Positions 6,780-64,000 of a stretch of 64,000 nt of DNA are shown in pieces. The position numbers were made by a program, and so were the translations under genes. The stretch spans positions 43,100,581 to 43,164,580 of the forward strand of contig OX442314.1 in NCBI GenBank assembly GCA_949358305.1, written 5' to 3'. Numbering within the stretch: the stretch's first letter is position 1; each line of letters starts with the position of its first letter. Origin of the DNA: Strigamia acuminata (Eukaryota > Arthropoda > Chilopoda > Geophilomorpha > Linotaeniidae). The notes beneath the pieces were generated by a model. The model saw nothing but the letters and a program-made list of their open reading frames with translations, did no database searches and was not told the origin of the DNA.

Positions 6780-8147
6780 GACAACACACTACTCTAAATC
6801 ACAGAAAGAATGTAAACAAATGAACAAACAATAAATTACAAAATGGTTCAAATTCATGGACAAAAATTCAACGCATATAAACATGGCGAACAAACAAAAA
6901 ATACACAGTGCTCAGAATTATGACGCTGGTTCTAATGAGGAAATTTACATAAGTGTGCAACGCATAAATGAACATAATCAAAACGAAAAATGCATAAGCC
7001 TCAGCATTAACTAGCATAGTTGAGAAGTAGCTATCCAGGCCGCTGACAAGCACCGGATTCCAAAATACTCGCTATAACCCACAAGGTGAATACAAGCGCT
7101 ATAACTGACAATTTGATAATTTCAAAGAAAAGGTACAAATTAATATAAAATGCAGTTGCACACTCCCAATATACAGCTTCAACTAAGATGCAGAACACCC
7201 AGTATATAACATGAAATAGCCAAAGATATACGCACAAAAAACGGGTTCGCATTACATGAATAAATTGAGAATAAAGATCAAAATATCTAAAGTGCAAACA
7301 AATAAGCAATAACAAAGCTCTTCCAAGTAAAATACAAACAAGAACGTGAAAAGTACAAAGTACGCGTCCTGTAAATGCATAGGCATTCTAAACAAATGTG
7401 AGCACGAGCGCGCGACTAAATGTCAAAAGACAAACACGAAGAAAAATGTTCTAAGTCCAACAAAGATGGACGCCGAGGCCCGGATTGAGGCTAAAACTCA
7501 GTCACGTGACCCTAACAAAATTCCTCAACGAAGTGCAAATTCGGCCATGTTGTTTCTCGAAAAGTGAGAGTGACGAAAATTCCAAGCCCGAGCCGTAAAA
7601 ATGTCAAAACAAAACTAACAACGCGTAAAATCAAACTAAACGAAGTTAAACAATTGAATAACTCAATAATTCTAACAATAAGGCGTGAAAAAATAAAGTT
7701 TTGTCGACACGGCGCGAGCGACGGCGTTCGCCACACTAACTCACGAGTAAAAATACAAAATTGTCCATGAAATGAAAAATAAACACACTCACGGTTACAA
7801 ATACACTAAAATCCAATGCTCCTCGCCCCGTCGAACACCCAAATCCGCTATTCTATGCGTTGTCGAACTCCGCTGAAATCGCACGAGGTAAACGCGTCCA
7901 ACAAGTGGGGGAAAATGGCGACCGAGCACAAGTGTGAAAAACACGTGGTCGGTCATCTGACCAATGAACACTCAGCGCCCCCCCACGAGGAAATTAGTCA
8001 CCAATTCTTCTGAATAGCGAACTTGAGCCCCGACAAACGGGCAAAGACACGGAAAAAGTACAAAAACTTAAGATTAACAAATAAAACAAGTAAAAATTAG
8101 GAATAATTTCCAAATACAATAAAGAAACAAATAACGCTTTGACACAA
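6780..8147. other. Gap between pol and the third ORF
   Basis: About 1.4 kb of AT-rich sequence inside the retrotransposon. Two short overlapping minus-strand frames (7315-7031 and 7053-6868) are rich in Phe, Tyr, Leu and Ile, but this is also what T-rich DNA gives by chance. ACGCGT sites continue here at 7362, 7621 and 7892. It may hold splice signals for the third ORF or remnants of a lost gene. Confidence 0.4.
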
Positions 8148-11100
8148 TTAGGAGACGACTTCCGCCGTGTTTTCCGATGTTTTAACGCGTGAACATCGTT
8201 CCTTTGCGAAGTTAATGCAAATAGACCGAATTTCTGACTGAAATTCAGCAACACGGGCGGAAATGTCAACTTGGTCTGCTGGAGACAAATCCTCCATTTC
8301 CAGTCCAGATTCCTCGTCTTCAGGGTCACTGGCGACGTCAGGAACTTCCGGTTCTGGTTCTGGCGCCTGATACCAGTGGCGGAGATCCGCCACGTGAATT
8401 GGCTGTGAAATGTTCCCGTTTTCGTCCATTAAAAGCACGGTATTCGGTCCAAGAAGACGATGTAGCAGGTAAACGCCCTCGGTTCGGTGTTGGAAACCCG
8501 AACTTACCTGTTTGTCGGTCGACGACAAAGTCCGATTTTTGACGGTGACCCAATCTCCAGGTTTGAACGCGTGTGGCCGCCGTTTCCGGTCATACCACTT
8601 CTTGTGGCGCAAGTTGGCGGCCTCCAAGTTCTTCTTAGCTTCTCCTCGAACGCGTAGCAAATAACGATGGAGAAATTGAGCCTCGTCTGGTGGTAGTGGT
8701 TCTCCGTCGTCCGTATCCGAGTCCACGTCGCCTGGAAACCGTGCTTCCTGTCCCGTAACCATCATATATGGTGAAAATTTAAGTGATGTCTGGTACGCAG
8801 AGTTGATGGCGAGAATAAATGAACCAATATGTCGATCCCAACGCGTATGTTCATCAATATACGCAAGGATGCATGTTTTGAGTGATTGGTTCAGCCTTTC
8901 CGCCAAGTTCCCCTGCGGATGGTACACAGACAGATACTTATTGACCATTCCCATTTCCGCACACCGCGCCTGAAATTTGGCGGAGCGGAAAGTGGGGGCG
9001 TTGTCACTAATGACGGTTTTTGGATATGCCCATCGATTAGTGAATTTCTTAAGCTGTTTGATTGTGGTGGAGACATCGGCTCTTTCTGTTAAGCGTACAT
9101 CCACCCAACGACTGGCGGCGTCAACCATGACAAACGCGTAACAGTGGCCGCCAGTCGACTTCAGCTTCTTTCCGAAATAATCGATGTAAATGGTTCGAAA
9201 TAACCTTCTTGGCTTCGCAGTCTCCATCTCGCCGTACGGAAGTCTTCGTTCCACCTTAGCCCTTTGACAGGGCTCGCACACCTTGATCCATTCCGTCACA
9301 TCTTTTTTCATCCCCGGCCAAAACACGCGTGTTTTTAAACGCATCATAGTCTTTTCGATGCCTAAATGGCCGGAGGTAGGCGGAAAATGTAGACAGTGGA
9401 AATACTTGTAGCGTAGCGGTAATGGAAGATATATCCGACGCGTAGGAGCCCGCTGACCAATTTTGGTTGGTGGAAACTTGCAAAGCAAGCCTCTGTATAA
9501 AGCCATGTCGATTGCTTGTTTCTTGACCTTTTCAGCCTCCTCTTCATCCGGCGGAAGACTTTTCGAACTGAGATACGAAATTAGTCCTTTTGACCATTCA
9601 TCGGCGTTTTGGGCTTCTTTAATGGCTTTCTGCGTTGGAAGTATCTCAATTGTCGGGTGATCCGCCGGAAGTGAGTAAAAACTGCCGTCGGAGGAGTGGT
9701 CGGAGTGTTGGGACAACTCCGGGTCGACGGAGGGTGTTGGAGAGGCCAATTGTCGCCGCGTCTGCGTCGCAGGCCCCAAATCCAGTGGCAAGTCCGGAAT
9801 CCGGAACTCGTCAGAATCCGTGTCACCTGGCGGCTCCCCACTTAAAAGGGACATTTCACTGCCTTCGGAGTCGGAAGCACGGTCGAAGATTATGGGAGCC
9901 TTTTTGGGCCTGCCAACAGGTCTCTTCTCCACAACCTTCTTCGGTCGCCCCCTCTTCCTTTTCACAGGGACATCCCCGGGCAGGGAAACCGCTGAAGACT
10001 CTTCATCCTCAGAGATTAGTTGCTCCACCGGGTCCTCAATGATTGGGTGCTTCCTTGGTCGGCCTCTTTTCCTCTTCGCGGGGGGGTCCCCAGCAGGGAG
10101 AGAAGCCGCCACAGACTCCTCATCATCGGAAACGAGCCCATCAAACATTGGGTTCTGGATGACCGGATGCTTCCTTGGTCGGCCTCTTTTCCTTTTCACC
10201 GGAGTAGCCCCAACTGGTGTTGGTCCTCCGGCGATCGGGTGCTTTCGTGGACGTCCCCTCCTCCTTTTTGGAGGATTGTTGTCCACCGGACCAACATCCA
10301 CCGACCCCAGAGCCGCCCCGGCCAACCTGGCGAGCAAGATGCGTTTTTGACGACGCATTGTGACAGCTCGAACAATTTTAGCATTTGATGGTTTAAAAAG
10401 CATTAAATCTTCCAACTCCTCCATCTTTGGCACAGGCCAATCCCTGTAATCGTCAAAGAACGCACAATAACATGTGTCGTCCAAAGCTGGGCAGTCCTCA
10501 TCTTCCAACTCGATTGGTGGGTCGACAGGGGCGCGGCTCAACGCGTCAGCAACTCGATTCTTTGTTCCACTGCAGTGTAGGAACGTAAAACGATATTCCG
10601 ACAAAGAAAGAATCCAGCGCGCCAATCGACCCTTGGGCTCTCGTTGGGTGAAAAGCCACAGCAAGGACTTATGGTCACTCTCGAGGTAAAAGTCCATTAG
10701 CTCGAGATACGCCCTGAAGCGCTTCACAGCCCACACAGCGGCCAGGCATTCGATTTCAGTTGTCATATAATTCTTCTCCGCCTTGTTTAAGGCTCTCGAC
10801 GCGAAGGCAATGGGAACGCGTACGCCGTCATTGTTGATTTGCATCAAGACGGCACCAAGCCCCGAATAACTGGCGTCTGTTTGGAGAATATAGGGTTTCG
10901 TCCAATCGGGGAAATTCCTATGAAGTGTAGACAACGAAATCTGGTTTTTCAAATACTCAAAGGCCGCCTGGTGCTCGGGCTTCCACACCCAAGGCGCATT
11001 TTTTCGCATCAGAACACGAAATACCTCGCAAGTCTTAGAATAACCGGGAAAGAACGACGCGTAATACCCGACCATCCCCTTGAAGCGTTGCAGCTCTTTG

Positions 11101-13274
11101 AGGTTAGTCGGCACCGGGTATTTTTGGATAGCGTCAGTTTTCTTCGGGTTGGGTCGGATAATTCCCTCTTCAACGATATGGCCAAGAACCTCAAGGCTCC
11201 TCTTACACAATTCAGTCTTCCCGGCGTTCATGGTAAAACCGGCGTTGTCGAGGAGCGAGAGCACCTTTTGCAGGTGAACAACATGCTCCTCGAAGGTCTT
11301 ACTAAAGACAATAATATCGTCAATATAGACAAAGACGAATTTGTAGAGGTGTTCAGCCAATGTAAGATTCATGGCGCGTTGCAGGGTGGCCGGCCCGTTG
11401 ATAGGACCGAAGGGCATACGCGTATATTCGTAGAGTCCCCTGTGGGTGACAAACGCGAGATATCGTTCATCTCCAGGTCGGACTCCTATTTGATGGAACG
11501 CTTCCCTTCCGTCGATTATGGAAAACCATTTTGCTCCACCAAGATACGCAAAGATGTTGTCGATATCTGGGAGAGGATAGACGTCAGGCAAAGTTTGGGC
11601 ATTTATCGGCCTAAAGTCCATAGCGCAGCGCCAGCGCCCGTCCTTCTTCGGGACCACAACCGGCGCTACAGCGCAGTCACTTTTGGAGCGTCTTATTACT
11701 CCTTGTGCCATTTTTTGGTCTATATAAGCGTCGATAATGTCCTTTTTTGCCGGATTCACCGGACGAACCGGAACATGAATCGGCCTAAAGTCGGGCTTCA
11801 AATTCACCTCAAATTGCGTATTATTGCAGAGCCCCAGCTCCTCACGAAAGATGTGAGCAACTGGTTTCAACGCAGCCATTAGATGAGTTATGCGTTTTGG
11901 CTCCAACTGATTACACAATTGGTCGTAGACCCAAGTGAGCTTGGTCGGGTCCCTATTCGGGATATATTGCACAAAATTAATATCATGCTGCCTAGGAGTA
12001 CTCTCAACACCTTCTGTTATAGGGAAAGTAGGAGGAGTCTCCACGTCGCCCACGCCGCCCCCCGCCACGGGAGAAGCCGTAAGGGCCACCGAAGGGCTTC
12101 GAGAAGCCATCTTCACCCTCGCCTTGCGCAATTTAACTGCCCGACGCAGTTGGCTCAAACACATGGTCCGTTTTCCAGGTTTACGCGTTATTCGCACGAT
12201 ACTCTTGCGTGCCTTTTCACGCCTCCTGGGGGACCAAATGAATGTCCATTGTTGAGAGTCGGGGTTCCTTCGAGCCAAAACAACCTTCACAATGTGGGGA
12301 TTGTCCGAATACGGAGGCTCAAACAACTCCTTTTCAAATTCACGCTTGCTCAGGAAAACGCAATTCACTTCACCAATCGGCGGCTTAGCCACGGGCTCCT
12401 CCCTTTCAACTGGAGGAGTGTCCTCGTCCGGCTTCACCTCCTGCTTAACCGAGCTAATGGGTTCCGCTGGATTTTCCGGTAATTTAACCGGCGGATTCCT
12501 CATTCCCGGCAAGTTGTACAGAGGCGGGCCTCGGACGCAAACTCCCTCCGGCAACGAGGGTTGTTCCTTGGTCAGAGGGAAAAGGACCACTGGATCGGAG
12601 GCTCGGGCTTGCTCCTCATTCAGGAAGGGGTGACGCGTTCCATCTCCCAGGAGAAACCAATAGTTATTGCCGTGATCTACGCATAAACCAACGGCCTTAC
12701 AGAAGTCCAGCCCCAGGAGGAGTTCCTGCGACCCCTGCGCAATGATGAGACAAGTGAAGCAAACTACCGCCAAGGGAGCTCGGACGGCAATTTGCACACA
12801 ACCAATGACGCGTTCAATTTGATTTGACGCGGTCCGAATTGTCTCGTCCATTGGGACCATCTCCACTCCAATTTCCTTGGAAAGCCTTTTGAACAGCGGC
12901 ATAGTCATTATACATGTCTGCGCTCCGCTATCCATTAGGGCTATAAACTCGATGTTCACCCAAGCTATCTTAACGAAGGGCGCATCGCGGCGACAACGGT
13001 CCTGCAACCCGATTATCAGCTTCGGTTCTTTGGAAGCCAAGAACTCGGGTGGCGACAACATGATAAAATTTGTCATTTTTGGAGGGGCACCAGCCACAAC
13101 AGTAGCATCAACTTCTGCTGGTTTGGGTGGCTCGATCCAATCACTTGGGCCACCTGTAGAAGCAGCCAACGACCGATTTACTTGCGTTTCGGGTCCGCCG
13201 CCTTCTCGGACGGGTTGGTCGACGGACCCAGGTCGTTTCCCGGAAACTGCCAGGGCTTGAAGCAATGGGGACAT
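8148..13274 (-). CDS. pol: Pol polyprotein: protease, RT, RNase H, AT-hooks, integrase
   Basis: The open frame has 1708 codons from its first ATG, but it is probably expressed by -1 frameshifting from gag. Retropepsin active site DSGA lies at about residue 115. Reverse transcriptase has YIDD at about 650. RNase H has the TDAS motif near 798. Integrase starts with an HHCC zinc domain near 1290-1330, followed by a DDE core (D near 1363, SDN near 1421, catalytic E near 1458) and a GPY-like C-terminal module. Between RNase H and integrase, residues about 1003-1125 hold five AT-hook cores (GRPRKH, GRPKK) separated by Ser/Glu/Asp-rich linkers, which is unusual. No chromodomain is visible. There are no internal stops, so the gene looks functional. 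It overlaps gag by 97 nt. Confidence 0.95.
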   Translation of the reverse strand: MSPLLQALAVSGKRPGSVDQPVREGGGPETQVNRSLAASTGGPSDWIEPPKPAEVDATVVAGAPPKMTNFIMLSPPEFLASKEPKLIIGLQDRCRRDAPFVKIAWVNIEFIALMDSGAQTCIMTMPLFKRLSKEIGVEMVPMDETIRTASNQIERVIGCVQIAVRAPLAVVCFTCLIIAQGSQELLLGLDFCKAVGLCVDHGNNYWFLLGDGTRHPFLNEEQARASDPVVLFPLTKEQPSLPEGVCVRGPPLYNLPGMRNPPVKLPENPAEPISSVKQEVKPDEDTPPVEREEPVAKPPIGEVNCVFLSKREFEKELFEPPYSDNPHIVKVVLARRNPDSQQWTFIWSPRRREKARKSIVRITRKPGKRTMCLSQLRRAVKLRKARVKMASRSPSVALTASPVAGGGVGDVETPPTFPITEGVESTPRQHDINFVQYIPNRDPTKLTWVYDQLCNQLEPKRITHLMAALKPVAHIFREELGLCNNTQFEVNLKPDFRPIHVPVRPVNPAKKDIIDAYIDQKMAQGVIRRSKSDCAVAPVVVPKKDGRWRCAMDFRPINAQTLPDVYPLPDIDNIFAYLGGAKWFSIIDGREAFHQIGVRPGDERYLAFVTHRGLYEYTRMPFGPINGPATLQRAMNLTLAEHLYKFVFVYIDDIIVFSKTFEEHVVHLQKVLSLLDNAGFTMNAGKTELCKRSLEVLGHIVEEGIIRPNPKKTDAIQKYPVPTNLKELQRFKGMVGYYASFFPGYSKTCEVFRVLMRKNAPWVWKPEHQAAFEYLKNQISLSTLHRNFPDWTKPYILQTDASYSGLGAVLMQINNDGVRVPIAFASRALNKAEKNYMTTEIECLAAVWAVKRFRAYLELMDFYLESDHKSLLWLFTQREPKGRLARWILSLSEYRFTFLHCSGTKNRVADALSRAPVDPPIELEDEDCPALDDTCYCAFFDDYRDWPVPKMEELEDLMLFKPSNAKIVRAVTMRRQKRILLARLAGAALGSVDVGPVDNNPPKRRRGRPRKHPIAGGPTPVGATPVKRKRGRPRKHPVIQNPMFDGLVSDDEESVAASLPAGDPPAKRKRGRPRKHPIIEDPVEQLISEDEESSAVSLPGDVPVKRKRGRPKKVVEKRPVGRPKKAPIIFDRASDSEGSEMSLLSGEPPGDTDSDEFRIPDLPLDLGPATQTRRQLASPTPSVDPELSQHSDHSSDGSFYSLPADHPTIEILPTQKAIKEAQNADEWSKGLISYLSSKSLPPDEEEAEKVKKQAIDMALYRGLLCKFPPTKIGQRAPTRRIYLPLPLRYKYFHCLHFPPTSGHLGIEKTMMRLKTRVFWPGMKKDVTEWIKVCEPCQRAKVERRLPYGEMETAKPRRLFRTIYIDYFGKKLKSTGGHCYAFVMVDAASRWVDVRLTERADVSTTIKQLKKFTNRWAYPKTVISDNAPTFRSAKFQARCAEMGMVNKYLSVYHPQGNLAERLNQSLKTCILAYIDEHTRWDRHIGSFILAINSAYQTSLKFSPYMMVTGQEARFPGDVDSDTDDGEPLPPDEAQFLHRYLLRVRGEAKKNLEAANLRHKKWYDRKRRPHAFKPGDWVTVKNRTLSSTDKQVSSGFQHRTEGVYLLHRLLGPNTVLLMDENGNISQPIHVADLRHWYQAPEPEPEVPDVASDPEDEESGLEMEDLSPADQVDISARVAEFQSEIRSICINFAKERCSRVKTSENTAEVVS

Positions 13275-15205
13275 AAAGCAATGCGTTTTTCAATATCACG
13301 CATATACCAACGATCCTTGCGATTTCGCACCCACTCAGCTCCGGGTGGTAACACTAAATTGGGAGGGCTAGCAGTGTTGGCAAAGGAATGGGCGGCATGG
13401 CCACACAATGCCACCGCGACACCCGGAGGAACCTTTGCTTCCGGGGCCTTTGCAGGGGCACCGATTACCCGTGTCGGCGCCGGAGGTTCACTCCTCAGGG
13501 ACTGCCCGACGACACTCTGCGCGTCACCATCCGCCATCGGATAGCCCAAAACCTCAGCCAACGCGACCAATTTTCTCTTGTCAAATTGGAGGCGTGGTGG
13601 AGGTTTCTCTGTCTTAGCCGGTTCCACTTTCCTAGTCTCCCCAACCCTAGCTTTCCTAGGTTTGGGTTCGGGAGCGGGAACTAGGCCTTTTCGAACTCCT
13701 TTTTCGTCAAATCTACGGTGTTGAAGGGCACGCATCTTCAACTCACGATCCGCCACCTGTCCCAGATCTATCGCCCGCGACATGGAATGCACGCCATAGC
13801 GGACCATCGTATCGGTGATCTGCGGCTGCAGCCAATGCTGAGCCAAATTCCACTGCTGCCGATCCCCTAGCACACCTGTCAGTTCAAGGTAACGACTCAT
13901 TTCACACAGAAACTCTGCCGTATCCTCTCCAACTTCCTGACACGCATCTTGTAAGAAGACCGCCGCGTCAGCCTCAGACAGGGAATACACCTTGCGGAAG
14001 CGCACGACAAATTCACTCCATGTTTTGGGTTTATGACGCAAGCGCAGGAACCAATTTAACGGTTTCCCACCCAAGGCCAAAGGAATAAACAAGTCGATGT
14101 ACGCCTCCTCCGACACGCGTGACATAACAAAATGTGCACGCAGTTTTGCCAGGAATCGCTCAACAGCATTATAAGATAGGTCCGTCTCATCAAACTTCGG
14201 CACACTCTCCGATTTCACATGCGACAAATCATACTGCGGCGGCGGGGCCGGTATGGGCGGATAAGTCCGCTGCCGGAAACGCGAATTGACTGAATTTCCG
14301 CGCGCAGCAGCTGCCCGATCGACACTTGCCGTCGAAGGAAGGCTGACAGCCGAGGATTTGGAACGAATTATGTCCCTCATAACCTCACTGTTGGCATACT
14401 CCGACGGAGCGTATCTTTGCGAGCCCGCTTGGGCTGTCACGTTCGATGGCCTCTCCCGCGGGGGCAGCGGAGGGTTTATATCATCCGGCGCTCCCCCTTC
14501 TCCTGCTAAACCTTGTCTGTCAAATTCACTTGGCGTCAGGATACGTGAGCGGACCGGTCTCGGCCCCTGATCCTGCCCAGGAGGAGGCCCGTCGCCAGGC
14601 AGAGTGTCATGAGGTCTCTGCTGAACAGGTGGAATAACCCCCTCCACGGGCTGCACGGTTAAAGCCACAATTTCCTCCCTAACTACATCCCTCATCCCCC
14701 CTAGAGTCTCATTCCTCCAATGTACCAATCTGCAGTCGATATTATGACTAAATTGTTCCATTGTTCGAACAACGCGTTCATTCAGCGCCAGCTCGGCTCG
14801 CTGTAAATAACGCAACCAATCTGGTTCACGTTGGACTTCCTCCCTAGCAACATTATCCTCCGGACTAGATCCCGGAGGAGCGGTGGGGTTTCTCGGCACC
14901 GGGGGAGTCAACACCGCTGACGCTGAAAAATCCACTCGAGACTCATGCAGAGACGAGGAGGTGTCGGGGCGATAGGAGCCATCTGTTGTGGAGGCCCCCA
15001 TCTCTGCAATTGCAGCACCCTCGTGTATTTGCGAGTAGGATGGCGGCCGACCATCCCCTGCCAAGGGAACGCCATGCACGGACTTGGGCCTTGGCTGCGA
15101 GTCAGACGGGCGCGGCGTACGTTCGTAAAGCCGCTCACCCGCCCGACGCAACCAGTCGGGCCACACACTTGTAGAGTCATCACCAAGATGACCTCCTTCC
15201 GCCAT
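13178..15205 (-). CDS. gag: Gag-like structural protein of the retrotransposon
   Basis: The 675-codon ORF follows the 5' LTR and primer site and precedes pol in the order expected for gag. The N-terminal half is Pro-, Ser- and Arg-rich. Residues about 330-480 (VPKFDETDLSYNAVERFL through the LNWF region) resemble the capsid-like core of Ty3/gypsy Gag (retrotrans_gag family). The C-terminus is basic and has CxxC/CxxH pairs (CGHAAH and CPHC) instead of a standard CCHC knuckle. The start ATG at 15205 has an in-frame acidic leader. The last codons contain the slippery site feeding pol. Assignment rests on position and general features. Confidence 0.85.
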   Translation of the reverse strand: MAEGGHLGDDSTSVWPDWLRRAGERLYERTPRPSDSQPRPKSVHGVPLAGDGRPPSYSQIHEGAAIAEMGASTTDGSYRPDTSSSLHESRVDFSASAVLTPPVPRNPTAPPGSSPEDNVAREEVQREPDWLRYLQRAELALNERVVRTMEQFSHNIDCRLVHWRNETLGGMRDVVREEIVALTVQPVEGVIPPVQQRPHDTLPGDGPPPGQDQGPRPVRSRILTPSEFDRQGLAGEGGAPDDINPPLPPRERPSNVTAQAGSQRYAPSEYANSEVMRDIIRSKSSAVSLPSTASVDRAAAARGNSVNSRFRQRTYPPIPAPPPQYDLSHVKSESVPKFDETDLSYNAVERFLAKLRAHFVMSRVSEEAYIDLFIPLALGGKPLNWFLRLRHKPKTWSEFVVRFRKVYSLSEADAAVFLQDACQEVGEDTAEFLCEMSRYLELTGVLGDRQQWNLAQHWLQPQITDTMVRYGVHSMSRAIDLGQVADRELKMRALQHRRFDEKGVRKGLVPAPEPKPRKARVGETRKVEPAKTEKPPPRLQFDKRKLVALAEVLGYPMADGDAQSVVGQSLRSEPPAPTRVIGAPAKAPEAKVPPGVAVALCGHAAHSFANTASPPNLVLPPGAEWVRNRKDRWYMRDIEKRIALCPHCFKPWQFPGNDLGPSTNPSEKAADPKRK
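13191..13241 (-). promoter_or_regulatory. Programmed -1 frameshift signal between gag and pol
   Basis: On the minus strand the heptamer GGGAAAC (13241-13235) lies in the gag frame as G GGA AAC, the canonical X XXY YYZ slippery form. Five bases downstream begins a perfect 7-bp stem, GGGTCCG (13229-13223) with CGGACCC (13197-13191). Pol is in the -1 frame relative to gag. The arrangement matches retroviral gag-pol frameshift sites; a pseudoknot is possible but not shown. Confidence 0.85.
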
Positions 15206-15363
15206 GATAGACAGAAACTATAGCAGTGACTCAAATGAATGATCTTACTGCTTAAAAAGTAGCGAATAACAACGCCACTTAAACCTTAATTTTTCCAAAG
15301 ATAATTGCCGCACCCACCGCAAAAGCAGTTTATATGGGCAGCAATTAGAAAAACTCGGAATAT

Positions 15364-15381
15364 TCCCGGGTTTCGGCACCA
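15364..15381 (-). other. Primer binding site complementary to tRNA-Phe
   Basis: The plus strand reads TCCCGGGTTTCGGCACCA, which equals the last 18 nt (with CCA) of typical metazoan tRNA-Phe, whose acceptor stem starts GCCGAAA. It ends two bases from the LTR. The minus strand therefore carries an 18-nt primer binding site in the standard place. Confidence 0.85.
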
Positions 15382-15383
15382 CG

Positions 15384-16888
15384 TGTAATGAATCGCGTTT
15401 CCCGAGCGGTTTGGGACGCGTTTGAAAGACGCCGCGATACAGAAAATCTTGGGAGCCTGGTCCTCGAGACCTGCCCAGCCGTGAGTGCGCGCCTTATGTC
15501 GGTAGCACACACTCCAGATCCCGATCTTTACACGAATATTTATTTTGGCCGGGTATTCCGAGCTACTAAAATGGGGGGACAGAATTTGCTTAGCGGTCAC
15601 CAGAGTCAAGACCCAACGCGCGTCCCGCAACGTATCGTGCAGATCACAAGATCACACGAAGTTAAACGAAACACGTAACGTCCCGACTCACAAGCGTCCG
15701 CCTCGCTGTCGAAGTGAAGCGTGAAATGCGTGCTAACGCGTGCGTAACTGGCCTGCACGGTCACTCAAATCCCTAACTACAGTCCGTGCACGGTATCTTG
15801 ATGCTAAATTCGTACTGCGCATCCCATTATTGCGCAGACGATTTTCTAATTCCAGTTGTTATGTGGCAGTATTAAGCCTAATATTAGGCCTAATAATGCG
15901 AAAATAAGGTAAATAAACAAAAATATTTTGGTACTACGTTGTAAATTACTTTTAATTATGAGTTTATTGTCGTTTATTTACTTTATTTTATTTTATTTTA
16001 ACTTTATTAGGCCTATTATTAGGCTTAATACTGCTAAATAACAACTGGAATTAGAAAATCGTCTGCGCAGAATGGGATGCGCAGTACGAATTTAGCATCA
16101 AGATACCGTGCACGGACTATAAACCTCGCACAAGTGCTTAATTAAGCTAAAGCCCGTAGTGGGCGGCGAAACTAAGCTACGCGCCGAATGCATGAAATAA
16201 ATAGACACAAAGACTTCAGTTTGAAAGCCAAACAAACTTATCCTGCCTAAATAGCGACGCGTCACGGCGCTTAAAACGATACGAAAAGAAGCGGAAAAAC
16301 AACAGGTTCAAATGGGTAAAACTGTGAGTTAACACTAATAAAGATGAGATGAAAACCTAGAGTCATGTCTCAGAACTACTAGGTGAAAACAAAGCAGCAA
16401 GTGAGCTTTGTGAAGTGAGCTAAGACTCTGCCATGAGCACTGGCTCCAAAGAGCACCTACGCGTTCGGGATACAGAGCTTAACCGAGGAAAAAAGGGAAA
16501 AATAGGGTGAAAGGTAAACTTGGACTCATCCAAGCTCAACCAATCACGGAAGAGTCAAGAGCCAATCAGTACAGTCGGTGCATACTAAGTGTATGACTAA
16601 CGTCGACGCGTACTGACCAGAATAGAAATGCAAATGAGTTCGCATCAAAACAATAAACAGAAATAGAAAAACTAGGAAGAGATAAGAGAGAAGTGAGAGA
16701 AAGAGAAGAAAGTTAGGAATGAGTAAGGGATAAGAAAGGAAGAAATGAGGGAAAAATGAGGAGAATTCGGCTAAACGTAAGACAGAATGTAAACAATACA
16801 AGGTAGGAACACAATTAGGGTTTATTAGAAACACAACACGGGGGAAACAATGCGTACTACTCGTACGCGTGAACACCGGACCGTGACA
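15384..16888 (-). repeat. 5' LTR of the Ty3/gypsy element, interrupted by a MITE
   Basis: This copy is 1505 bp instead of 1163 bp because of a 340-bp MITE plus a 2-bp TA duplication. Outside the insertion it matches the other LTR with one difference seen (G at 16610, which creates an extra ACGCGT). The GTCT target duplication follows at 16889-16892. Confidence 0.95.
15780..16119. mobile_element. Tc1/mariner-type MITE inside the 5' LTR
   Basis: Long terminal inverted repeats begin YAGTCCGTGCACGGTATCTT and extend for most of each half. The element is flanked by a TA duplication (15778-15779 and 16120-16121), and the empty site is visible in the other LTR. There is no coding capacity. A degenerate relative lies at 19712-20202. 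Confidence 0.9.
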
Positions 16889-50385: not shown

Positions 50386-51059
50386 TATCACAATTTCCCT
50401 CGCAATTTTTTTGATTTTAGTTCATTCTAGCCCTACACAGTGCTGCTACAGCTAAAAGGTGGTGCTTAGTTTGGACTCATCGCCTCTTTTGCTGCGACAC
50501 AAAACGAAACGTAGCGAAACATACCACCACGTTTTCTTTATTGCGAGCCGCCAGCCAATAGAATGCGCGACGAGGTGCTCGATGGAAGAAACTCCGGAGT
50601 TGAATTCTGCCGTTTAGTTTTTGCTTCATTTCTCGCATTTTTTTCGGAAATTGAGTTTATTCTTATCGTTCAAATCACGTTGTAAAAGAACAGGTGTTGA
50701 AGCGCCGATTCAAAAGTGTTCCAGTTTTGTATTTTGCCACCAAACAGCGCTAATGACAAGTGGGCCATGACATCACCTTAGCTCAGACCACGCGGTAAAT
50801 ATTATATTTATCTATTTATTATATTTATCTAAACTGTTTTATTTATGCTCGTTTTTTAAATTTTTTTAAATCAATTTTGGCAAGTGCAAGCCTAATTTTA
50901 ATTGAATTTTAGCAAATACCAGCCATTTTTCATTTATTTTAGCAAATACATGCCACTTTTTCATAAATTTTGGCAAATATAAGCCATTTTTTAATGAATT
51001 TTTTATCCCATTTTTTTCTGTTTATTAATTTTGTTTTTCCTGAATTCCAGATTTAAAAC

Positions 51060-52446
51060 ATGGGAAGGAGGTGTTTTGTTCCACACTGTAAAGGAGGGTA
51101 TCCTAACCAACCCAAGGTGTCAACATTCAAGACACCTAGCAACATCGAGGAAAGGAAGAAATGGCAAGCAGCAATTCCTCGAAAGGATCGTCAAATAACT
51201 GCAAAAGATTGCGTTTGTGAAGTTCATTTTCAACCAGATGACATAATCCGTTTTTGGGAAACAACCGATAACAATGGACTAGTTCTGGCACATGTTGACT
51301 ATAAGATACCTTCACTGAAGAAAGGTGCTGTGCCTTCATTATTCCCGAACTGCCCAGCTTACTTATCGAAAGGAAAACCTACCAAACGGAAATCACCTAC
51401 AGAACGAAAGTTTTCAGCGACGGCAAAGAAAAAGTCTAACAAATCAAAAAAGCCCCATCTTGAGGAAATTGAAGAGCCCAATGTTGGATCTAGCAAGGAC
51501 TATGCAGAACCTAATGTTGGATCTGGCATGGACCATGCAGAGCCTAATGTTGGATCTAGCATTGAGTATGCAGAGCCTAATGTTGAATCTGGCATGGACA
51601 ACGCAGAGCCTAATGTTGGATCTGGCATGGGCTACGCAGAGCCTAATGTTGGATCTGGCATGGACTACGCAGTGCCTAATGCTGGATCTGGCATGGACTA
51701 CGCAGAGCCACAATGTGCAGAACCAATCGAAGAAATTAATAATCCGGATATTTTGTTTGGTAACATACGACTCTTAGCTTCAACTTTAAAATTTAAAGTT
51801 CCACACGCATCTTGGTTACTTCAAGTCAATGATGCGCCAAAAAAGTAGTCTGTCACGTTTTTCCAAATTCACACTCAATCATTTGGACCTACTGTTATAC
51901 AGAAATGTTTAACTGTTACTGATACCCTGCAGTTTTCGTGTTTCATTTTCAACAGAATTAAAATGCCAGTTGACCAGTGAAACTGACAGGATAAAAGACA
52001 TTAACCACTTGGAAGAATTACTCGTCACGTTACATGATTCTAAGATTTGTTACGGAGGCCCTAACAAGGAGCAATTCCAGGGTATTTCTCCGGAATCTGC
52101 ACATGTCGACTATATGGGCAGATGGAGAAGACACAACAAGTGCTCATTTTTGTGCAGTAATGACTCAAACACTTTTAGCTACTCGAACACTTGCAGTTTC
52201 TGTAAAAATTTAGATAAAACACTTTTAAGCATACTGTATAGGAAGAAAACTACTACCAAAGTCTCTAGAGCTAGGTGTTTGGTTTCACCTACTGAAAAAA
52301 TCAACCTAATTCGAAAAGCAACAAAAAACGAACGCAGAGAGAGCAAGGCAACGGCTGAATCTCAAGGTGACAGTTCTCAAAAGACAGCTGGAAAGCTTGA
52401 AGCAAGAATATATATGCAGGAAAAAAACGAGAGTAAATCAGAATAA
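51060..52446 (+). CDS. THAP-domain protein, copy A (frameshifted C-terminus)
   Basis: The first exon starts at the THAP methionine (MGRRCFVPHC). A likely donor at 51759 (GTAACA) joins to 51956 in frame, giving 396 aa; unspliced, a 262-aa protein ends at 51848. The THAP zinc finger (C2CH: C5, C10, C53, H56 with the AVPSLF box) binds DNA. Residues about 140-225 are roughly eight tandem 11-residue repeats of the type EPNVGSGMDYA. Compared with copy B, a 4-bp duplication (AGAG near 52338) shifts the frame of the last 40 residues and destroys the basic/leucine coiled coil. THAP proteins include cellular regulators and P-element-type transposases; no transposase domain is seen here. Confidence 0.8.
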
Positions 52447-52879
52447 ATATTATTTTCGAATGTCAATACGGACCAAACCGCAACTTTATTGGTCAAAATT
52501 ATGTCAAAATTGTTGAGTTTGTCATTCAACATTCTCTCTCTCATTTACTAGTATACACATGATTTTGCAATATTGCTTGTGTCCAGAACCCTAAATTAGA
52601 GTATTCTTGTATTAATGGATTGTTCAAATGAAAAAAATTCAGAATGATGGTCCAATAAACCATTACTCACTTTTACTCATTTTTACTAACGACTCGATAA
52701 ACGACCATTTTACAAGATAATTACTCTTGAACGCATCAAAACACAATGCTGTAAAATTTAAATTGAATAATTAAAACATTAAAACAAAAAAGTTAATAAG
52801 AAAACAAAAATGATATAATACTTTTGACATTTTACTAAATTATTCTTCCTTTTAAAAATAAAAAATAAAAATATAAATT

Positions 52880-52926
52880 TGGACACACCGGGAATCGAAC
52901 CTGGGTCTTTTCACTGAGTTACGTCC
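52880..52926 (-). other. tRNA-like element without anticodon arm, copy A
   Basis: On the minus strand GGACGTA (7 nt) can pair with TGTGTCC followed by A, and the T-arm carries a perfect B box, GGTTCGATTCC. Only about 47 nt lie between the ends and there is no anticodon stem. It is more likely a deleted tRNA or a SINE end than a tRNA gene. Confidence 0.5.
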
Positions 52927-53025
52927 CCGATCGACCCAGAAACCACCCAAAACCAAATTTTCATCAACAAAAAATCCGCTTTCTACAATTCCAAATCATT
53001 AAATAAAAATTTAAAAAAAAAAAAA

Positions 53026-55005: not shown

Positions 55006-55184
55006 GTTTTTTATCTCCAAAAACATAGGCTTAAAAAAACGAATCGTTACGTCACTAACTCTGCTCTTTCTTCCTGAATAAAGACAAATTTGACAATGTC
55101 AAAAATGGTTGCTTTCTTGTCAAAAATGGTCGTTTTTTGTCAAAAATGGTCGTTTTTTGTCAAAAATGGACGTTTTTCGTAAAA
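54111..55184. other. Intergenic sequence between THAP copies
   Basis: No gene is seen. It contains a run of about 23 T at 54977 preceded by three TGATC repeats, and AAAAATGGTCGTTTTTTGTC repeats at 55095-55180 just before duplication copy B. Confidence 0.5.
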
Positions 55185-55370
55185 AATTTGCCAAGTGCAA
55201 GCCTTATTTAAATTGAATTTTAGCAAATACCAGCCATTTTTCATTTATTATAGCAAATATATGCCACTTTTTCATAAATTTTGGCAAATATAAGCCATTT
55301 TTTAATGAATTTTTTATCTCATTTTTTTCTGTTTATTAATTTTGTTTTTCCTGAATTCCAGATTTAAAAC

Positions 55371-56763
55371 ATGGGAAGGAGGTGTTTTGTTCCACACTGT
55401 AAAGGAGGGTATCCTAACCAACCCAAGGTGTCAACATTCAAGACACCTAGCAACATCGAGGAAAGGAAGAAATGGCAAGCAGCAATTCCTCGAAAGGATC
55501 GTCAAATAACTGCAAAAGATTGCGTTTGTGAAGTTCATTTTCAACCAGATGACATAATCCGTTTTTGGGAAACAACCGATAACAATGGACTAGTTCTGGC
55601 ACATGTTGACTATAAGATACCTTCACTGAAGAAAGGTGCTGTGCCTTCATTATTCCCGAACTGCCCAGCTTACTTATCGAAAGGAAAACCTACCAAACGG
55701 AAATCACCTACAGAACGAAAGTTTTCAGCGACGGCAAAGAAAAAGTCTAACAAATCAAAAAAGCCCCATCTTGAGGAAATTGAAGAGCCCAATGTTGGAT
55801 CTAGCAAGGACTATGCAGAACCTAATGTTGGATCTGGCATGGACCATGCAGAGCCTAATGTTGGATCTAGCATTGAGTATGCAGAGCCTAATGTTGAATC
55901 TGGCATGGACAACGCAGAGCCTAATGTTGGATCTGGCATGGGCTACGCAGAGCCTAATGTTGGATCTGGCATGGACTACGCAGTGCCTAATGCTGGATCT
56001 GGCATGGACTACGCAGAGCCACAATGTGCAGAACCAATCGAAGAAATTAATAATCCGGATATTTTGTTTGGTAACATACGACTCTTAGCTTCAACTTTAA
56101 AATTTAAAGTTCCACACGCATCTTGGTTACTTCAAGTCAATGATGCGCCAAAAAAGTAGTCTGTCACGTTTTTCCAAATTCACACTCAATCATTTGGACC
56201 TACTGTTATACAGAAATGTTTAACTGTTACTGATACCCTGCAGTTTTCGTGTTTCATTTTCAACAGAATTAAAATGCCAGTTGACCAGTGAAACTGACAG
56301 GATAAAAGACATTAACCACTTGGAAGAATTACTCGTCACGTTACATGATTCTAAGATTTGTTACGGAGGCCCTAACAAGGAGCAATTCCCGGGTATTTCT
56401 TCTGAATCTGCACATATCGACTATATGGGCAGATGGAGACACAACAAGTGCTCATTTTTGTGCAGTAATGACTCAAACACTTTTAGCTACTCGAACACTT
56501 GCAGTTTCTGTAAAAATTTAGATAAAACACTTTTAAGCATACTGTATAGGAAGAAAACTACTACCAAAGTCTCTAGAGCTAGGTGTTTGGTTTCACCTAC
56601 TGAAAAAATCAACCTAATTCGAAAAGCAACAAAAAACGAACGCAGAGCAAGGCAACGGCTGAATCTCAAGGTGACAGTTCTCAAAAGACAGCTGGAAAGC
56701 TTGAAGCAAGAATATGCAGGAAAAAAAAAAACGAGAGTAAATCAGAATAAATATTATTTTTGA
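55371..56763 (+). CDS. THAP-domain protein, copy B (intact coiled coil)
   Basis: The exons 55371-56070 and 56267-56763 close in frame to 398 aa. The first exon encodes the same protein sequence as copy A, with the THAP C2CH finger and eight 11-residue repeats. The second exon encodes a Cys-containing middle (CSFLCSN, CSFCKN) and a basic, Leu-spaced C-terminal helix (RRARQRLNLKVTVLKRQLES), likely a dimerising coiled coil. This looks like the functional parent form. The donor GTAACA and acceptor CAACAG are identical in both copies. Target genes are unknown. Confidence 0.83.
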
Positions 56764-57182
56764 ATGTCAATATGGACCAAACCGCAACTTTATTGGTCAA
56801 AATTATGTCAAAATTGTTGAGTTTGTCATTCAACATTCTCTCTCTCATTTACTAGTATACACATGATTTTGCAATATTGCTTGTGTCCAGAACCCTAAAT
56901 TAGAGTATTCTTGTATTAATGGATTGTTCAAATGAAAAAAATTCAGAATGATGGTCCAATAAACCATTACTCACTTTTACTCATTTTTACTAACGACTCG
57001 ATAAACGACCATTTTACAAGATAATTACTCTTGAACGCATCAAAACACAATGCTGTAAAATTTAAATTGAATAATTAAAACATTAAAAAAAAAAGTTAAT
57101 AAGAAAACAAAAATGATATAATACTTTTGACATTTTACTAAATTATTCTTCCTTTTAAAAATAAAAAATAAAAATATAAATT

Positions 57183-57229
57183 TGGACACACCGGGAATCG
57201 AACCTGGGTCTTTTCACTGAGTTACGTCC
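57183..57229 (-). other. tRNA-like element without anticodon arm, copy B
   Basis: Identical to the element at 52880-52926 as part of the segmental duplication. Confidence 0.5.
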
Positions 57230-57482
57230 CCGATCGACCCAGAAACCACCCAAAACCAAATTTTCATCAACAAAAAATCCGCTTTCTAAAATTCCAAATC
57301 ATTAAATAAAAATTAAAAAAAAAAAAAAAAACTCCTTTCATTACAGTCACAAAAATGTCTGTTTTTTTTACTACTAAAATAGCAAAACAACTTTTCAAAA
57401 ACTCTCTTGTCATTATTACGTGAGTATGTATGTTCCAAACCATGGTAACCAGTCTCCAGGCTGCCATGGCGAAGACCATATC

Positions 57483-59261: not shown

Positions 59262-59942
59262 ATGGCCAACGGTACCGGTACTGTTCTTCTGATGCTGTGT
59301 GCCTTCTTGATGCTTGCTCAACTTATTGGGTAAATAACCAAAAACCTAGTTGTTTTGAACTTAAAGTTAAGTGCGTGCTTCTTCTCCGTCTTCCTGGGCC
59401 AAGTAAACTTACAATCCATTAAAAGAAACTCAGACAGTTTCCAATGTCTGTGTTTACACAAACATTGTGTAAACTTGTTGGGACGCATGCTCACATAAAT
59501 AAGAACTAGGGAGTGCAGATTGTTTGGTTTTAGGCCTTTAATCGTTGTCTAGAGGTTGGAGTCCTCCAGTCTACCCACATGCTGGCCGTGCCGCGTAGTT
59601 TGCGATAAGTTATAGTTGAATGAAAAACTAATGGGAACCAACTTCATTCATTATCTAAACGATTGAGTATAATGAAAAATATCAGTTGATGAGCAGAAAG
59701 AGAAGAAGATCCAAATCACAATCTGTTGGTTCAACTCTATGAATGCAATGCACCAAACGCACATTCTACAATGAACTTTGCACCTGTATTCCTTAAGCTC
59801 ATGTAAATCATGTGTTAACTCAAATCGTTTTTCTTCCAGAGCTTGTCAAGAAGAAGGTTACGGGTGTCATAAACATAGTGACTGCTGCAACGGAAAATGC
59901 GGAGGCTTTTACTTTTGTAAATATGCTAATCCATTAGGTTGA
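59262..59942 (+). CDS. Small secreted inhibitor-cystine-knot-type peptide
   Basis: Two exons (59262-59329 and 59840-59942) with a phase-2 GT-AG intron encode 56 aa. Residues 1-23 form a hydrophobic signal peptide. The mature part has six cysteines spaced C-x6-C-x5-CC-x3-C-x5-C, the classic knottin framework (three disulfides expected). This scaffold occurs in venom toxins, antimicrobial and protease/amylase-inhibitor peptides and in non-venom secreted peptides, so the role cannot be assigned. There is no propeptide between signal and first Cys, unlike many venom precursors. AATAAA follows at about 60009. The intron break just before the cysteine module is common in such genes. Confidence 0.85.
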
Positions 59943-60145: not shown

Positions 60146-61437
60146 TGTGAGTGTTCGGACGGACGCCACGTGGTCTGGGGAGGACCACGAGGCGCTGGAC
60201 GCAACACACACGATGATTAAATCCACGAAATACACGAAAGACACAAGTTTAGGTTTTGGTTATTACTTTATTGTTGTCTAGGGGTATGATATGGTGTCTC
60301 AAGGTGTATTTCCCAAATGTAATAGCGGTTTTGCCGCTATTCCTGATTGACCACGTGTCACGGCAATCGGTTGCGGCGATCCGGGTTTTTACTTATTAAA
60401 TTATTTAAATTCAATAAGCAATCGTCGTAGAGATGCCGTACAGGACTTCTACTCTGTGGCCAAATGTTTGTCTAGGGGAATGATTTTACACAGAGTAAAG
60501 GAAAAATTAGATAGTTTTAATCGTTCAAAATACAAAGGAGGTATTATTTAAAATGTTTGGGGTCGATCTGGCTTCTTCTTCAAATATACACTCACAGTTG
60601 ACCGTTGGCTCCAAGATGGCGTCGATGGCGTCGTGTGAGCGCGGGATTTTAGCGGAGTAAACTCAACGCTAAAATACGTTGCTAAAATATACTAAAAATC
60701 CTCGCGGAGCAAGCTCAACACGAGAATACGTCTTGCACACAGCGGTTTGATTATTACGGAGCAAGCTCGACGTAACAATCCGTCTTAACACAATCCGCCT
60801 TGTGGAGTTAAACTCAACACAAAGCCTTCAAATTGACAGAGCAAGCTCAATGTCAATTTACACACAGAAATGGCTTAAATTACGCGTAGTAATTCAAGCA
60901 GAAAGGCGCTATTCCGTACAGTTGGCACGGACCAGCAATGAATCTCAACTCTTCCAGATATCACAGATCACACTTAGCAATGGTTGGCATAAGTTTGACA
61001 CAGATGTGAATGGTTTGGAAGCAGAATCAAGAATGCGGGAAGAGTGGGCCAAAACCGTTTGGCTCACTCCTAAATCTGCTCAGAAAAGCTGCGCAGATGA
61101 CGAGTTGCACAAAGATCACACACGGCCGCCTTCGGGTCGTGTGCAACAATTGAGCCGGGCACGCGCGAGGGGAAGGGATGCTCCGCCCAGGCACACGCCT
61201 AGCAGCATCATCAAAGCAATGCACGCTGCAGCGCGATTGGTTGACGCTGTTGCTGGGCCAAAACTTGCTGCAAAACACAATATTATTTGGGTAATATTGT
61301 GTCTTGGTTTATATTTTATTAATGTATGTTTTATTTCAATTTACATTGAAACAAAACATATAAGCTTGTTGAATATGTTTATAAGACAATTTGGAAATAT
61401 GGTGCGCACTCAAATAGGAATATTTGAGGTCACCACA
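60146..61437 (-). repeat. 3' LTR of the second retrotransposon (1292 bp)
   Basis: In sense it starts TGTGGTGACC next to the polypurine tract and ends CACTCACA (TG...CA). The outer boundary is inferred from the TG/CA rule because the partner LTR is outside the window. It contains the hairpin array at 60646-60898. Confidence 0.75.
60646..60898 (-). other. Array of six covarying hairpins in the LTR
   Basis: Five stem-loops (60646-60675, 60698-60727, 60749-60780, 60797-60825, 60830-60859) have different 8-10-bp stems around nearly the same apical segment, in sense TTGAGCTTGCTC or TTGAGTTTACTC: a two-base bulge, GAG:CTC and a CUUG-type loop. A sixth (60874-60898) has loop TACGC. Imperfect pairs inside the stems are C/A on the plus strand, hence G.U in the element's RNA. 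This strongly suggests a selected RNA structure. Confidence 0.85.
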
Positions 61438-61458
61438 CTTCCCCCCCTTTTAAGAAAG
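61438..61458 (-). other. Polypurine tract of the second retrotransposon
   Basis: In sense it reads AAAAGGGGGGGAAG directly before the LTR's TGTGG, a textbook plus-strand primer. Confidence 0.85.
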
Positions 61459-61610
61459 AATCCTATTCTTTTCCAAAAGAGACAGGTAAGTATGAGAATA
61501 AATACACAAAGTTTCAAAGTAAAATGGAACAGGATATATATTTATTCTTTTTTATTACAGTGTAAAAATAAAAAAAGGAATTATTTTTAATGAACGGGCG
61601 TGTTCCCTAA

Positions 61611-64000
61611 TTATTTCGGCAACATGTCCGTCGAATGATCGTTTGGATCTTTGTGCTCTGTGACGGTGCACAAAGGTCGGCCGGCGTTTGGTCCTGACCG
61701 GAAGCCAGGGTTGATGTGGAGCCACACTTGCTTGATGCGGTCCACACCATCCCTTCGTCCAAAACCCATCTCGAAATACTCCTGCGGGTCTTGAGGCGTA
61801 ATTCGAGCGAACACCAGGCGTTGATGTAGGATCCACGGCTGTTGTTCCTTGATGTGGTTTTCCAGCCACGCGAGGACTCGGTTGCATAAATCCTCGCTGT
61901 TCTGGAGAATCGTTTTCGTCGCGCTCGTTATGTAGCAGAAGGCGTATAATGAGCGCAAACGTTGATAGGCGGTGAGGTGGGTGGCCATATTCGATCCCCT
62001 ATCTCTCGGCGGCGAATCCTTTGGAGGAGGCGGCGGTGGCGGCGACTTTTTGCAGATCGAGAGGGATCTGGATCTGCGCAAAGCCGGGGTGCGCGTCTTT
62101 GGTCTGGCACCGCTGGCCACAGGCACGACGAACTCGCGATCGTCGCTGTCGAGCCATTCCATCGGAGACGAGATGTTGCAACTCGGTGCCTCGGTTGCAC
62201 GGGAAACACTCGACGTTGCCGTGATGGCAGCGTGGAGTGGAGCTGCGGATGACGGTGGTGCGCCAGCGGGACGGGCGGTAGCTCGTTCTGCTGCGCGTCG
62301 CTGCTTCAGCGCAGCCCATTCCTGCCGTAGTCGAATGGCGGATCCAGCCGGAGTTTCGCCAGTCGCCTCGGCTTGTTGCGTCAATTCGGCGAGCATCGTT
62401 GGAGGATCGGGGCGAACTGACTCCCAATCGTCCAGCAAGGCTCGTGGAAGCCCTAACGGCACGGTCCACAATCGAGTGGCGGCCGCCAGAGCAATCTGTG
62501 GGTCGGGAAAGACTCCTTGGAACAGGATTCGAAGAAGTCCCTCCGACAACTTCCTGTTCATCTTCTGCAGCGTCCGTTGCAGTTGCTTGTCGGACTTGCA
62601 CGACGCAAGCTCTCGCGCAAGCCATTGCCATTCTTTCTCTCCTTCGCGGATCTGAGCGAGTTGGTATTCGTCCAGATGCGCGAGGTACATCGTTTGGGCT
62701 GTCTCGGGAAACGATGAGAATCGCCTCCAGAGATCAGCGCACTCCTGTGCGGGAAATGGTTCTTGAGAGACGTATCCCTCAAAACGGATGACCGATGTCA
62801 CGTGTGGCACGGGCACCGATGGGTCTGGTCGCATGTCGCTGGTGACTGGGCGGCAAGCGAACGGCAAAGAGGTGTTGACGTCTCCTTGACCGGCTTGCAA
62901 TGCGGCGATGCGTCGATCTTCTTTTGCTATCTCGTCCGACCAGTCAATCCGGCCGGAGGAGGAAGCGCTAAGCTGTGAAGCGTTGGACTTTTCTTCACGC
63001 GACGAGAGTGAACTCCTCGTGGAAGATTGGCGCGATTGCACTCGAGGTCGGCTTCGGGATGTGGGTCTCGACACGGACTTCGAATGTCTTTTTGGCGGCG
63101 TCGGCTCGCGTCGGTGATGTGAGCGATGACGAGTCTTCTGGAGTGGAGGTAACCCTCCAATGGCGCCTTCCCCCGACGACTGTGTTGGGGAGGAGCGACG
63201 GCCACTGTAGGGCGACCTCGATGATCGTGACCTCGACGTGGAGCGCGGTGGCACCACGTGGATGGTGGAAGCGACCTGTACCCGGGGCTCAGGCTCTGGA
63301 TACGGGTTTGGCACGAAATCAGCATGGAAACATCCGCCCATGGCTAGCTGATGCATCTCCGATTGGCATGTCGGCACCCAACGTTTCTTTCCGTCCGTTG
63401 TTACACGGAAAGATTCGTGGTAGAGGCGTACAACCTCGGCCTTGGTTTGGTCCAAGCGTTGGAAAATGTCCTCCAAAATCTGTCGACGCTCCCACGCAGG
63501 AGCGTTGAAGTAACGGCGATGGTCTCGCGTTTCTTGATTGATCACTGTGAAGGCGAAGTCGAGCAACACGTTTCGCAGTGGTCCGAAGGTGTCGCGCTTC
63601 ATTGCCCACTCGAGGGCGTCGCGATGACCGAATCCATCGATTAAATAGGCGATCCGAAACTTCGTTCCCCATCGCTTGTTTAAGGCCTTGGAGAACTTGT
63701 GTCGGGCCGCCCAAAACGTTAGTCTTCCTTTAGACTTTATGATCTCCGGTGGCAAAGCGTGTCGCCAGACACCAGGAGCTGTCGGAACATCGGGATGCAG
63801 TTCAAGATGCGTTTCCCGAAGCTGGATGATCCGGTCGTGTCTCTGTGCACGAGTTTCGCCGTTTGGATCGGCGAATAGGCCTCCTCGAAGTTGTGGTCGG
63901 GGCGGCGTGACTGGCAAACGGGCAGCAGCGTCGGCCAGAGCGGCTTGAGCTTCGGCGGACGCTTCGGCGGACTCTTCGGTGACATCCACGGATGCATTCA
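61611..64000 (-). CDS. Long ORF of the second retrotransposon, unknown function, 5'-truncated
   Basis: At least 796 codons remain open to the window edge; the first in-frame codon usable as a start near the edge is only GTG, so the true N-terminus lies outside. The protein is hydrophilic. An N-terminal folded part contains GRLTFWAARHKFSKALNKRW. A Ser/Arg-rich middle (about residues 245-345) resembles an RNA-binding tail. A helical segment (about 400-490) carries DLWRRF and ends LLRILFQGVFPD. A proline run and a C-terminal domain with LYAFCYITSATKTI follow. There is no membrane segment, protease, RT or integrase. Its position just before the 3' LTR matches the third ORF of the other element, with which it may share a segment. 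Confidence 0.75.
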   Translation of the reverse strand, partial: NASVDVTEESAEASAEAQAALADAAARLPVTPPRPQLRGGLFADPNGETRAQRHDRIIQLRETHLELHPDVPTAPGVWRHALPPEIIKSKGRLTFWAARHKFSKALNKRWGTKFRIAYLIDGFGHRDALEWAMKRDTFGPLRNVLLDFAFTVINQETRDHRRYFNAPAWERRQILEDIFQRLDQTKAEVVRLYHESFRVTTDGKKRWVPTCQSEMHQLAMGGCFHADFVPNPYPEPEPRVQVASTIHVVPPRSTSRSRSSRSPYSGRRSSPTQSSGEGAIGGLPPLQKTRHRSHHRREPTPPKRHSKSVSRPTSRSRPRVQSRQSSTRSSLSSREEKSNASQLSASSSGRIDWSDEIAKEDRRIAALQAGQGDVNTSLPFACRPVTSDMRPDPSVPVPHVTSVIRFEGYVSQEPFPAQECADLWRRFSSFPETAQTMYLAHLDEYQLAQIREGEKEWQWLARELASCKSDKQLQRTLQKMNRKLSEGLLRILFQGVFPDPQIALAAATRLWTVPLGLPRALLDDWESVRPDPPTMLAELTQQAEATGETPAGSAIRLRQEWAALKQRRAAERATARPAGAPPSSAAPLHAAITATSSVSRATEAPSCNISSPMEWLDSDDREFVVPVASGARPKTRTPALRRSRSLSICKKSPPPPPPPKDSPPRDRGSNMATHLTAYQRLRSLYAFCYITSATKTILQNSEDLCNRVLAWLENHIKEQQPWILHQRLVFARITPQDPQEYFEMGFGRRDGVDRIKQVWLHINPGFRSGPNAGRPLCTVTEHKDPNDHSTDMLPK

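Follow-up and report, generated by a model that had tools for sequence, protein, structure and literature searches.

The question raised by this locus is what a row of hairpins does in the long terminal repeat (LTR) of a retrotransposon, and whether the selected molecule is the RNA or the DNA. The window, that is, the whole stretch of 64,000 nucleotides of the Strigamia acuminata genome analyzed here, contains five hairpins that present a common apex on entirely different stems, followed by a sixth hairpin. Here, the element that carries them is described, the pairing is compared among many copies of the LTR, and the conserved core is set against known RNA motifs that bind arginine.

Results

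The element carrying the array

The hairpins belong to a 12.5-kb element of the Ty3/gypsy type on the minus strand, young and present in high copy number in its animal host. Its 3' LTR (60372-61437, minus strand; 1066 bp, TG...CA) was delimited by genome comparison and alignment, the genome searched comprising 237.5 Mb in 157 contigs. The sequence-only reading had placed the array in an LTR, and this assignment was correct: the repeat adjoins a polypurine tract, read from the sequence directly before it (61438-61451, minus strand), and the 5' LTR (L018), located beyond the window edge, differs from it at 1 of 1066 positions. The element is flanked on both sides by the 4-bp target duplication ACCG, and duplications of this length were found at five of the six LTR pairs compared. 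After the 5' LTR comes the primer site TGGGGGCCCGGCCGGG, which we take to be tRNA-Pro-like, and then gag, a weak protease match, reverse transcriptase (RT), RNase H, integrase, a third ORF, and the 3' LTR. In the domain search, Retrotrans_gag, RVT_1, RT_RNaseH, Integrase_H2C2, and rve were matched in this order on the minus strand, with a protease match below the cut-off. Both the domain order, with gag and then RT-RNase H-integrase between the LTRs, and the ends of the element, with TG...CA repeats, primer site, polypurine tract, and a short target duplication, are those of Ty3/gypsy elements.

Two products of the element are relevant for what follows. Gag carries a CCHC zinc knuckle and the arginine-rich stretch RSRRRHRSKRKR, complete in three of nine Gag copies; in the other six, either the retrieved sequence or the reading frame stops before or within it. 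Arginine-rich stretches are common among Gag-like proteins. The third ORF (61611-63989, minus strand, from the ORF list) encodes at least 792 amino acids, extends past the window, is arginine/serine-rich in places, and would be a candidate partner of the array. A search that scored 7991 candidates detected no homologue of it at E≤0.001, and no match was obtained in Pfam or NCBIfam. Among the genomic matches to this ORF, 52 of the 57 scored (1882 candidates) contain no stop codon, and therefore the family looks young.

Hairpins of this copy

The array spans 253 nt inside the 3' LTR (60646-60898), and the five hairpins with a common apex, as well as the sixth, were all found at the positions that the sequence-only reading had given. 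In the minus-strand (sense) RNA, hairpins 1 (60646-60675) and 2 (60698-60727) have a 9-bp stem, a UU bulge, and a GAG:CUC helix, with the loops UUUA and CUUG, respectively. Hairpin 3 (60749-60780, minus strand) has a 10-bp stem, a UC bulge, GAG:CUC, and the loop CUUG; hairpin 4 (60797-60825, minus strand) has an 8-bp stem, a UU bulge, GAG:CUC, and the loop UUUAA; and hairpin 5 (60829-60860, minus strand) has a 10-bp stem, a UU bulge, GAG:CUC, and the loop CUUG. The pairing of the stems is as had been proposed, the stems being in fact 1-3 bp longer; a UU bulge had been ascribed to the whole series and is present in hairpins 1, 2, 4, and 5, hairpin 3 being the exception. Also, the five mismatches noticed within stems (60700:60725, 60705:60720, 60753:60776, 60799:60823, and 60877:60895) are indeed all C.A or A.C, read 5' to 3', on the plus strand, which corresponds to G.U in the sense RNA.

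Hairpin 6 (60874-60898, minus strand) is a plain 10-bp stem with a 5-nt loop and without the shared apex. In the alignment of the 30 closest LTRs, it is 99.6% paired and shows no double change, whereas hairpin 5 shows the most (three pairs). Perhaps hairpin 6 is part of the region but not of the array proper.

When a unit is defined as a lower stem of 6 bp or more, a 2-nt 5' bulge, and GAG-N4-5-CTC, the window contains five units on the minus strand and none on the plus strand. Dinucleotide shuffling of the 253-nt array gave no unit in 1999 of 2000 sequences and a single unit in the remaining one, on which ground a chance origin of the units was rejected. The sense RNA of the array folds at -73.3 kcal/mol (z = -3.52). 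The plus-strand RNA (z = -3.84) and the DNA (z = -4.35) also fold well, and therefore folding energy cannot tell which strand is selected; the base changes do.

Covariation among copies

Two alignments were used. The first consists of 30 LTRs (25 distinct rows) collected by DNA similarity alone. In it, 99.8% of the stem cells are paired, compared with 33.5-46.0% when the partners are slid by 1-3 columns, and double changes occur in four pairs and in none of the slid versions. Counted over all 30 rows, 1981 cells are Watson-Crick, 142 are G.U, two are A.C, one is another mismatch, and four are gaps.

More divergent copies were sought with a pattern that required three GAG-N4-CTC blocks and took no account of the bulge. 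On each strand of the genome it matched 578 places, against 195 with the pattern reversed as a control. A tandem satellite rich in GAG/CTC (L047; C1:10019982-10020622) also fits this pattern, and so some of the places are not arrays. Moreover, 20 more distant stretches, with 72-86% identity to one divergent LTR, were chosen by the analyst from 48 matches; at least one unit was found in 19 of them, often with other stem sequences. Altogether, 70 loci were scanned, leaving out two inner pieces (L031 and L032) and the satellite; the locus scan found no unit in L073. The length filters were passed by 58 arrays, 47 of them distinct; since some loci overlap (for example, L037/L050 and L043-L046/L053), repeats are dropped from all distinct counts. 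Omission of the shorter L048, L055, L057, and L058 gave the second alignment, of 43 distinct arrays with divergent copies included. Conservation of GAG:CUC in this alignment is partly a product of selection by the scan, which required several GAG..CTC units; the identity of the bulge was not among its criteria.

In the 43-array alignment, 99.1% of 2656 stem cells are paired in the sense RNA. Double changes affect 14 pairs and 61 cells, the slid controls reaching at most four pairs and five cells. A tree-based null, in which the same substitutions were placed on the same branches but in random columns, was run 300 times. It gave a pairing of 77.2% (SD 3.5, maximum 86.2%) and 20.8 double-change cells (maximum 50), and none of the 300 nulls reached the observed value of either; the number of double-change pairs was matched by 15 of them. 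On the branches, the events that keep a stem pair amount to 17.0 double and 54.7 single changes, and those that break one to 20.9 single and 3.8 double (means of 50 resolutions). In the pair-by-pair tree test no single pair was found at E≤0.05, the best being a stem pair (E = 0.083), followed by a non-stem pair (E = 0.233). The covariation that had been anticipated among LTR copies is thus found at the level of the whole structure, and at the present divergence an R-scape-type criterion singles out no individual pair. The earlier proposal of a selected sense-strand RNA structure, which had named packaging, export, and reverse transcription among its possible roles, is upheld by the whole-structure test in the 30 LTRs and in the 43 distinct arrays. 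Judged from these alignments, selection on the RNA structure of the array appears close to shown.

Which strand is selected

In the 43-array alignment, the cells that are not Watson-Crick in the sense RNA comprise 162 G.U, 12 A.C, and 13 other mismatches, and in the 91 distinct units the corresponding numbers are 64, 6, and 19. The excess of G.U over A.C indicates that selection acts on the sense RNA, and the strand argument first drawn from this single copy holds across many. That the repeats serve instead as palindromic protein-binding sites or cruciforms in DNA is scarcely credible: inverted repeats do fold well as DNA and as plus-strand RNA, but duplex DNA has no reason to favor G.U over A.C, and this asymmetry largely refutes the reading, which was rejected.

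Conserved core

The units follow the consensus RYR-U-Y-GAG-YNUR-CUC-YRY. A plain 2-nt 5' bulge is present in 323 of the 329 GAG..CTC hairpins found inside arrays at the 70 loci. Among the 91 distinct units, the bulge is UU in 47, UC in 40, UA in three, and CU in one, and the pair under it is G-C in 50, A-U in 35, and G-U in six. U occupies the first bulge position in all 213 lettered cells of the 43-array alignment and also in 150 of 150 in the 30-LTR alignment, which was gathered without any motif. Above the bulge, the first pair is G-C in 210 and the second is A-U in all of the 213 lettered cells. The mean entropy in the 43-array alignment is 0.0 for the first bulge base, 0.03 for GAG:CUC, 0.18 for the first three lower pairs, 0.28 for further lower pairs, 0.54 for the linkers, and 0.87 for the second bulge base, the most variable class of position. 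Most loops are YNUR with a nearly fixed U, that of hairpin 4 being YNUAA; most are not self-complementary by eye, and loop-loop kissing was set aside. Between one and seven units were detected per locus, where some arrays may be truncated at the ends of the fetched stretches; the seven-unit form was found in LTRs of 1139 bp.

Position in the transcript

A putative poly(A) signal, ATTAAA (60516-60521, minus strand), is present in nine of nine aligned LTRs, and UGUGU follows it in the sense direction (60492-60488) in eight of nine. If ATTAAA acts in this role and transcription starts upstream of the array, the array would lie in R and thus at both ends of the RNA, like TAR. On the other hand, if the AATAAA and TATAAA found close to the start of the LTR were used, the array would lie in U5. 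In either case, it would form part of the 5' leader. A leader intron between GTGAGT (60595) and CCCCTAG (60478), both on the minus strand, was considered and not retained, the donor being absent in L037/L050, which represent one place. The stretch after the array between these two motifs is AT-rich and divergent, like a leader intron.

Comparison with TAR, 7SK, and other RNAs

A search of 60300-61500 against 4227 Rfam families at E≤1 gave no match of the array to 7SK or to any other family, and a known RNA family was ruled out on this basis. The only match in this interval was mir-2831, outside the array and with 19.3 bits against a cut-off of 90.

The array resembles HIV TAR in being a hairpin structure in LTR-derived RNA, and in its upper helix, which is GAGC:GCUC in TAR as in most array units. 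Nonetheless, TAR is one hairpin with a larger loop and a 3-nt bulge, whereas the array has five hairpins (1-7 detected across loci) with 2-nt bulges, and HIV is a different kind of element. In the arginine sandwich, as described in PMC6189040, a pyrimidine of the bulge joins a base pair above it in a triple and covers the arginine, and the nucleotide before the bulge forms the base on which the arginine rests. According to that paper, the triple joins U23 to A27-U38 in TAR and U40 to A43-U66 in 7SK; in TAR, G26 is also bonded by the arginine. Its authors regard the two bulges as identical in secondary structure. By the residues A22, U23, G26, and A27-U38 described there, TAR shares with the array a 5' pyrimidine bulge that starts with U and is followed by G-C and A-U pairs. 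The 7SK stem-loop 1 motif ASM3 is also similar, with a 2-nt UU bulge, G-C and then A-U above it, and a purine-pyrimidine pair below, although it reads GAUC where the array reads GAG, and lies within a longer bulged stem of a separate RNA of pol III type.

The sequence layout of the sandwich is found in the LTR core: the bases that the triple requires (bulge U and A-U pair) do not vary, the G-C pair is nearly fixed, and the second base of the bulge is unconstrained. The array is like TAR or 7SK ASM3 in this layout and is classed as neither; it is not filed as 7SK because no model matched it.

The host has its own 7SK gene at C1:11838216-11838504 (L076 1498-1791, minus strand), followed by a T run, with 56.6 bits to RF00100 and a slightly better fit to Arthropod_7SK (58.8 bits). 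It contains CA-UU-GAUC...GAUC-UG, in which UU is a bulge in the structure line of the Rfam model, present in a 41-nt fold and absent in a 75-nt fold. Also, two host matches to HEXIM were found, with 152.4 (L074; 149 on re-search) and 62.6 bits (L075). In these HEXIM and 7SK searches the controls stayed silent, yet matches were obtained.

Discussion

Based on the comparison of copies, the sense transcript of the LTR would fold into a row of separate hairpins, each displaying the same recognition core on a stem whose sequence is free to change. From the stem upward, this core comprises a purine-pyrimidine pair, a two-nucleotide bulge on the 5' side with U in first place, a G-C pair followed by an A-U pair, and a tight loop of the form YNUR. 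If it behaves like the motif of TAR and 7SK, its first bulge U may contact the A-U pair in a U.A-U triple, which would create a slot for one arginine. An arginine-rich protein could then dock on several hairpins at once, with the copy number providing avidity. The likeliest partners would be Gag, through its arginine-rich stretches and zinc knuckle, or the product of the third ORF, and in this way the RNA would be singled out for packaging or for handling in the nucleus. Host HEXIM/P-TEFb may be a second candidate. We give an even chance to the reading that an arginine-rich protein, bound in sandwich mode, docks repeatedly along the LTR transcript at the hairpins of the array. Two limits apply to it: a core so short and conserved fits many RNA-binding proteins, and a sandwich leaves the invariant U of the loop unexplained.

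Packaging signals (psi) of retroviruses comprise several hairpins in LTR-proximal leader RNA, and the array could be such a signal, read by the knuckle and basic stretches of Gag through the loop and GAG:CUC and without any sandwich. The CCHC knuckle of Gag, the nearly fixed U of the YNUR loop, and the location of the array in LTR sequence ahead of gag are all in line with this possibility, which we nevertheless hold to be rather unlikely, since it gives no reason for a fixed first bulge base beside the most variable second one. Also, the array differs from the stem-loops of psi in repeating a single core on covarying stems.

The repetition of similar hairpins with one core, and the lack of a match in Rfam, would also suit docking by a host RNA-binding protein that has nothing to do with the sandwich, such as one acting in RNA transport or export. 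This alternative names no candidate protein and the pattern of the bulge agrees with a geometry already known, so that we consider it unlikely.

The element may have evolved its own TAR, its LTR RNA imitating the sandwich site of host 7SK several times so as to pull in P-TEFb through HEXIM, or through an arginine-rich protein of its own, and promote elongation, an idea that seems distinctly improbable. In 7SK, according to PMC6189040, a G-C pair under the bulge abolishes HEXIM binding, and Tat still binds, about fivefold more weakly; together with the G-C pair found at this position in 50 of the 91 distinct units, this argues against plain HEXIM binding by those units.

Finally, the structure itself could be selected without a specific partner, for stability, shielding from small RNAs, or control of translation or reverse transcription. 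Pairing that is kept while the stem sequence changes would be expected in this case as well, but the core is conserved well above stems and linkers, which points to recognition and makes this explanation very doubtful.

Arginine-sandwich hairpins in LTR transcripts are already known from HIV. If the docking of an arginine-rich protein on the array is real, a covarying array of sandwiches in a Ty3/gypsy element of an animal would point to an origin of this RNA-protein lock outside the lentiviruses. No such array was found in the open-access literature on retrotransposons, TAR, and LTR structure, as covered by the titles and abstract openings among the matches listed. The 91 distinct versions of the core constitute a natural set for asking which bases matter, and the array makes RNA control in Ty3/gypsy elements directly testable.

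Other features of these sequences can be mentioned. The window contains a second gypsy-type element (3205-16888, minus strand), which has RT-RNase H-integrase as well as a third ORF of its own that includes a stretch of CxxCxG type; the unit scan of the window detected no hairpin of the array type in it. On the plus strand, a 2.2-kb direct duplication (50861-53025 and 55174-57328; 98.5% identity) carries a gene that by eye is THAP-like and has an internal repeat, and a gene at 59262-59942, read by eye as having two exons, would encode a small secreted cysteine-rich peptide with a knottin-like cysteine spacing. Elsewhere in the genome, upstream of the array of a divergent LTR, a stretch that by eye resembles a coding fragment of a RING finger was observed (L048 1230-1500, minus strand, in C1:29270000-29272500), as if a piece of a host exon had been captured.
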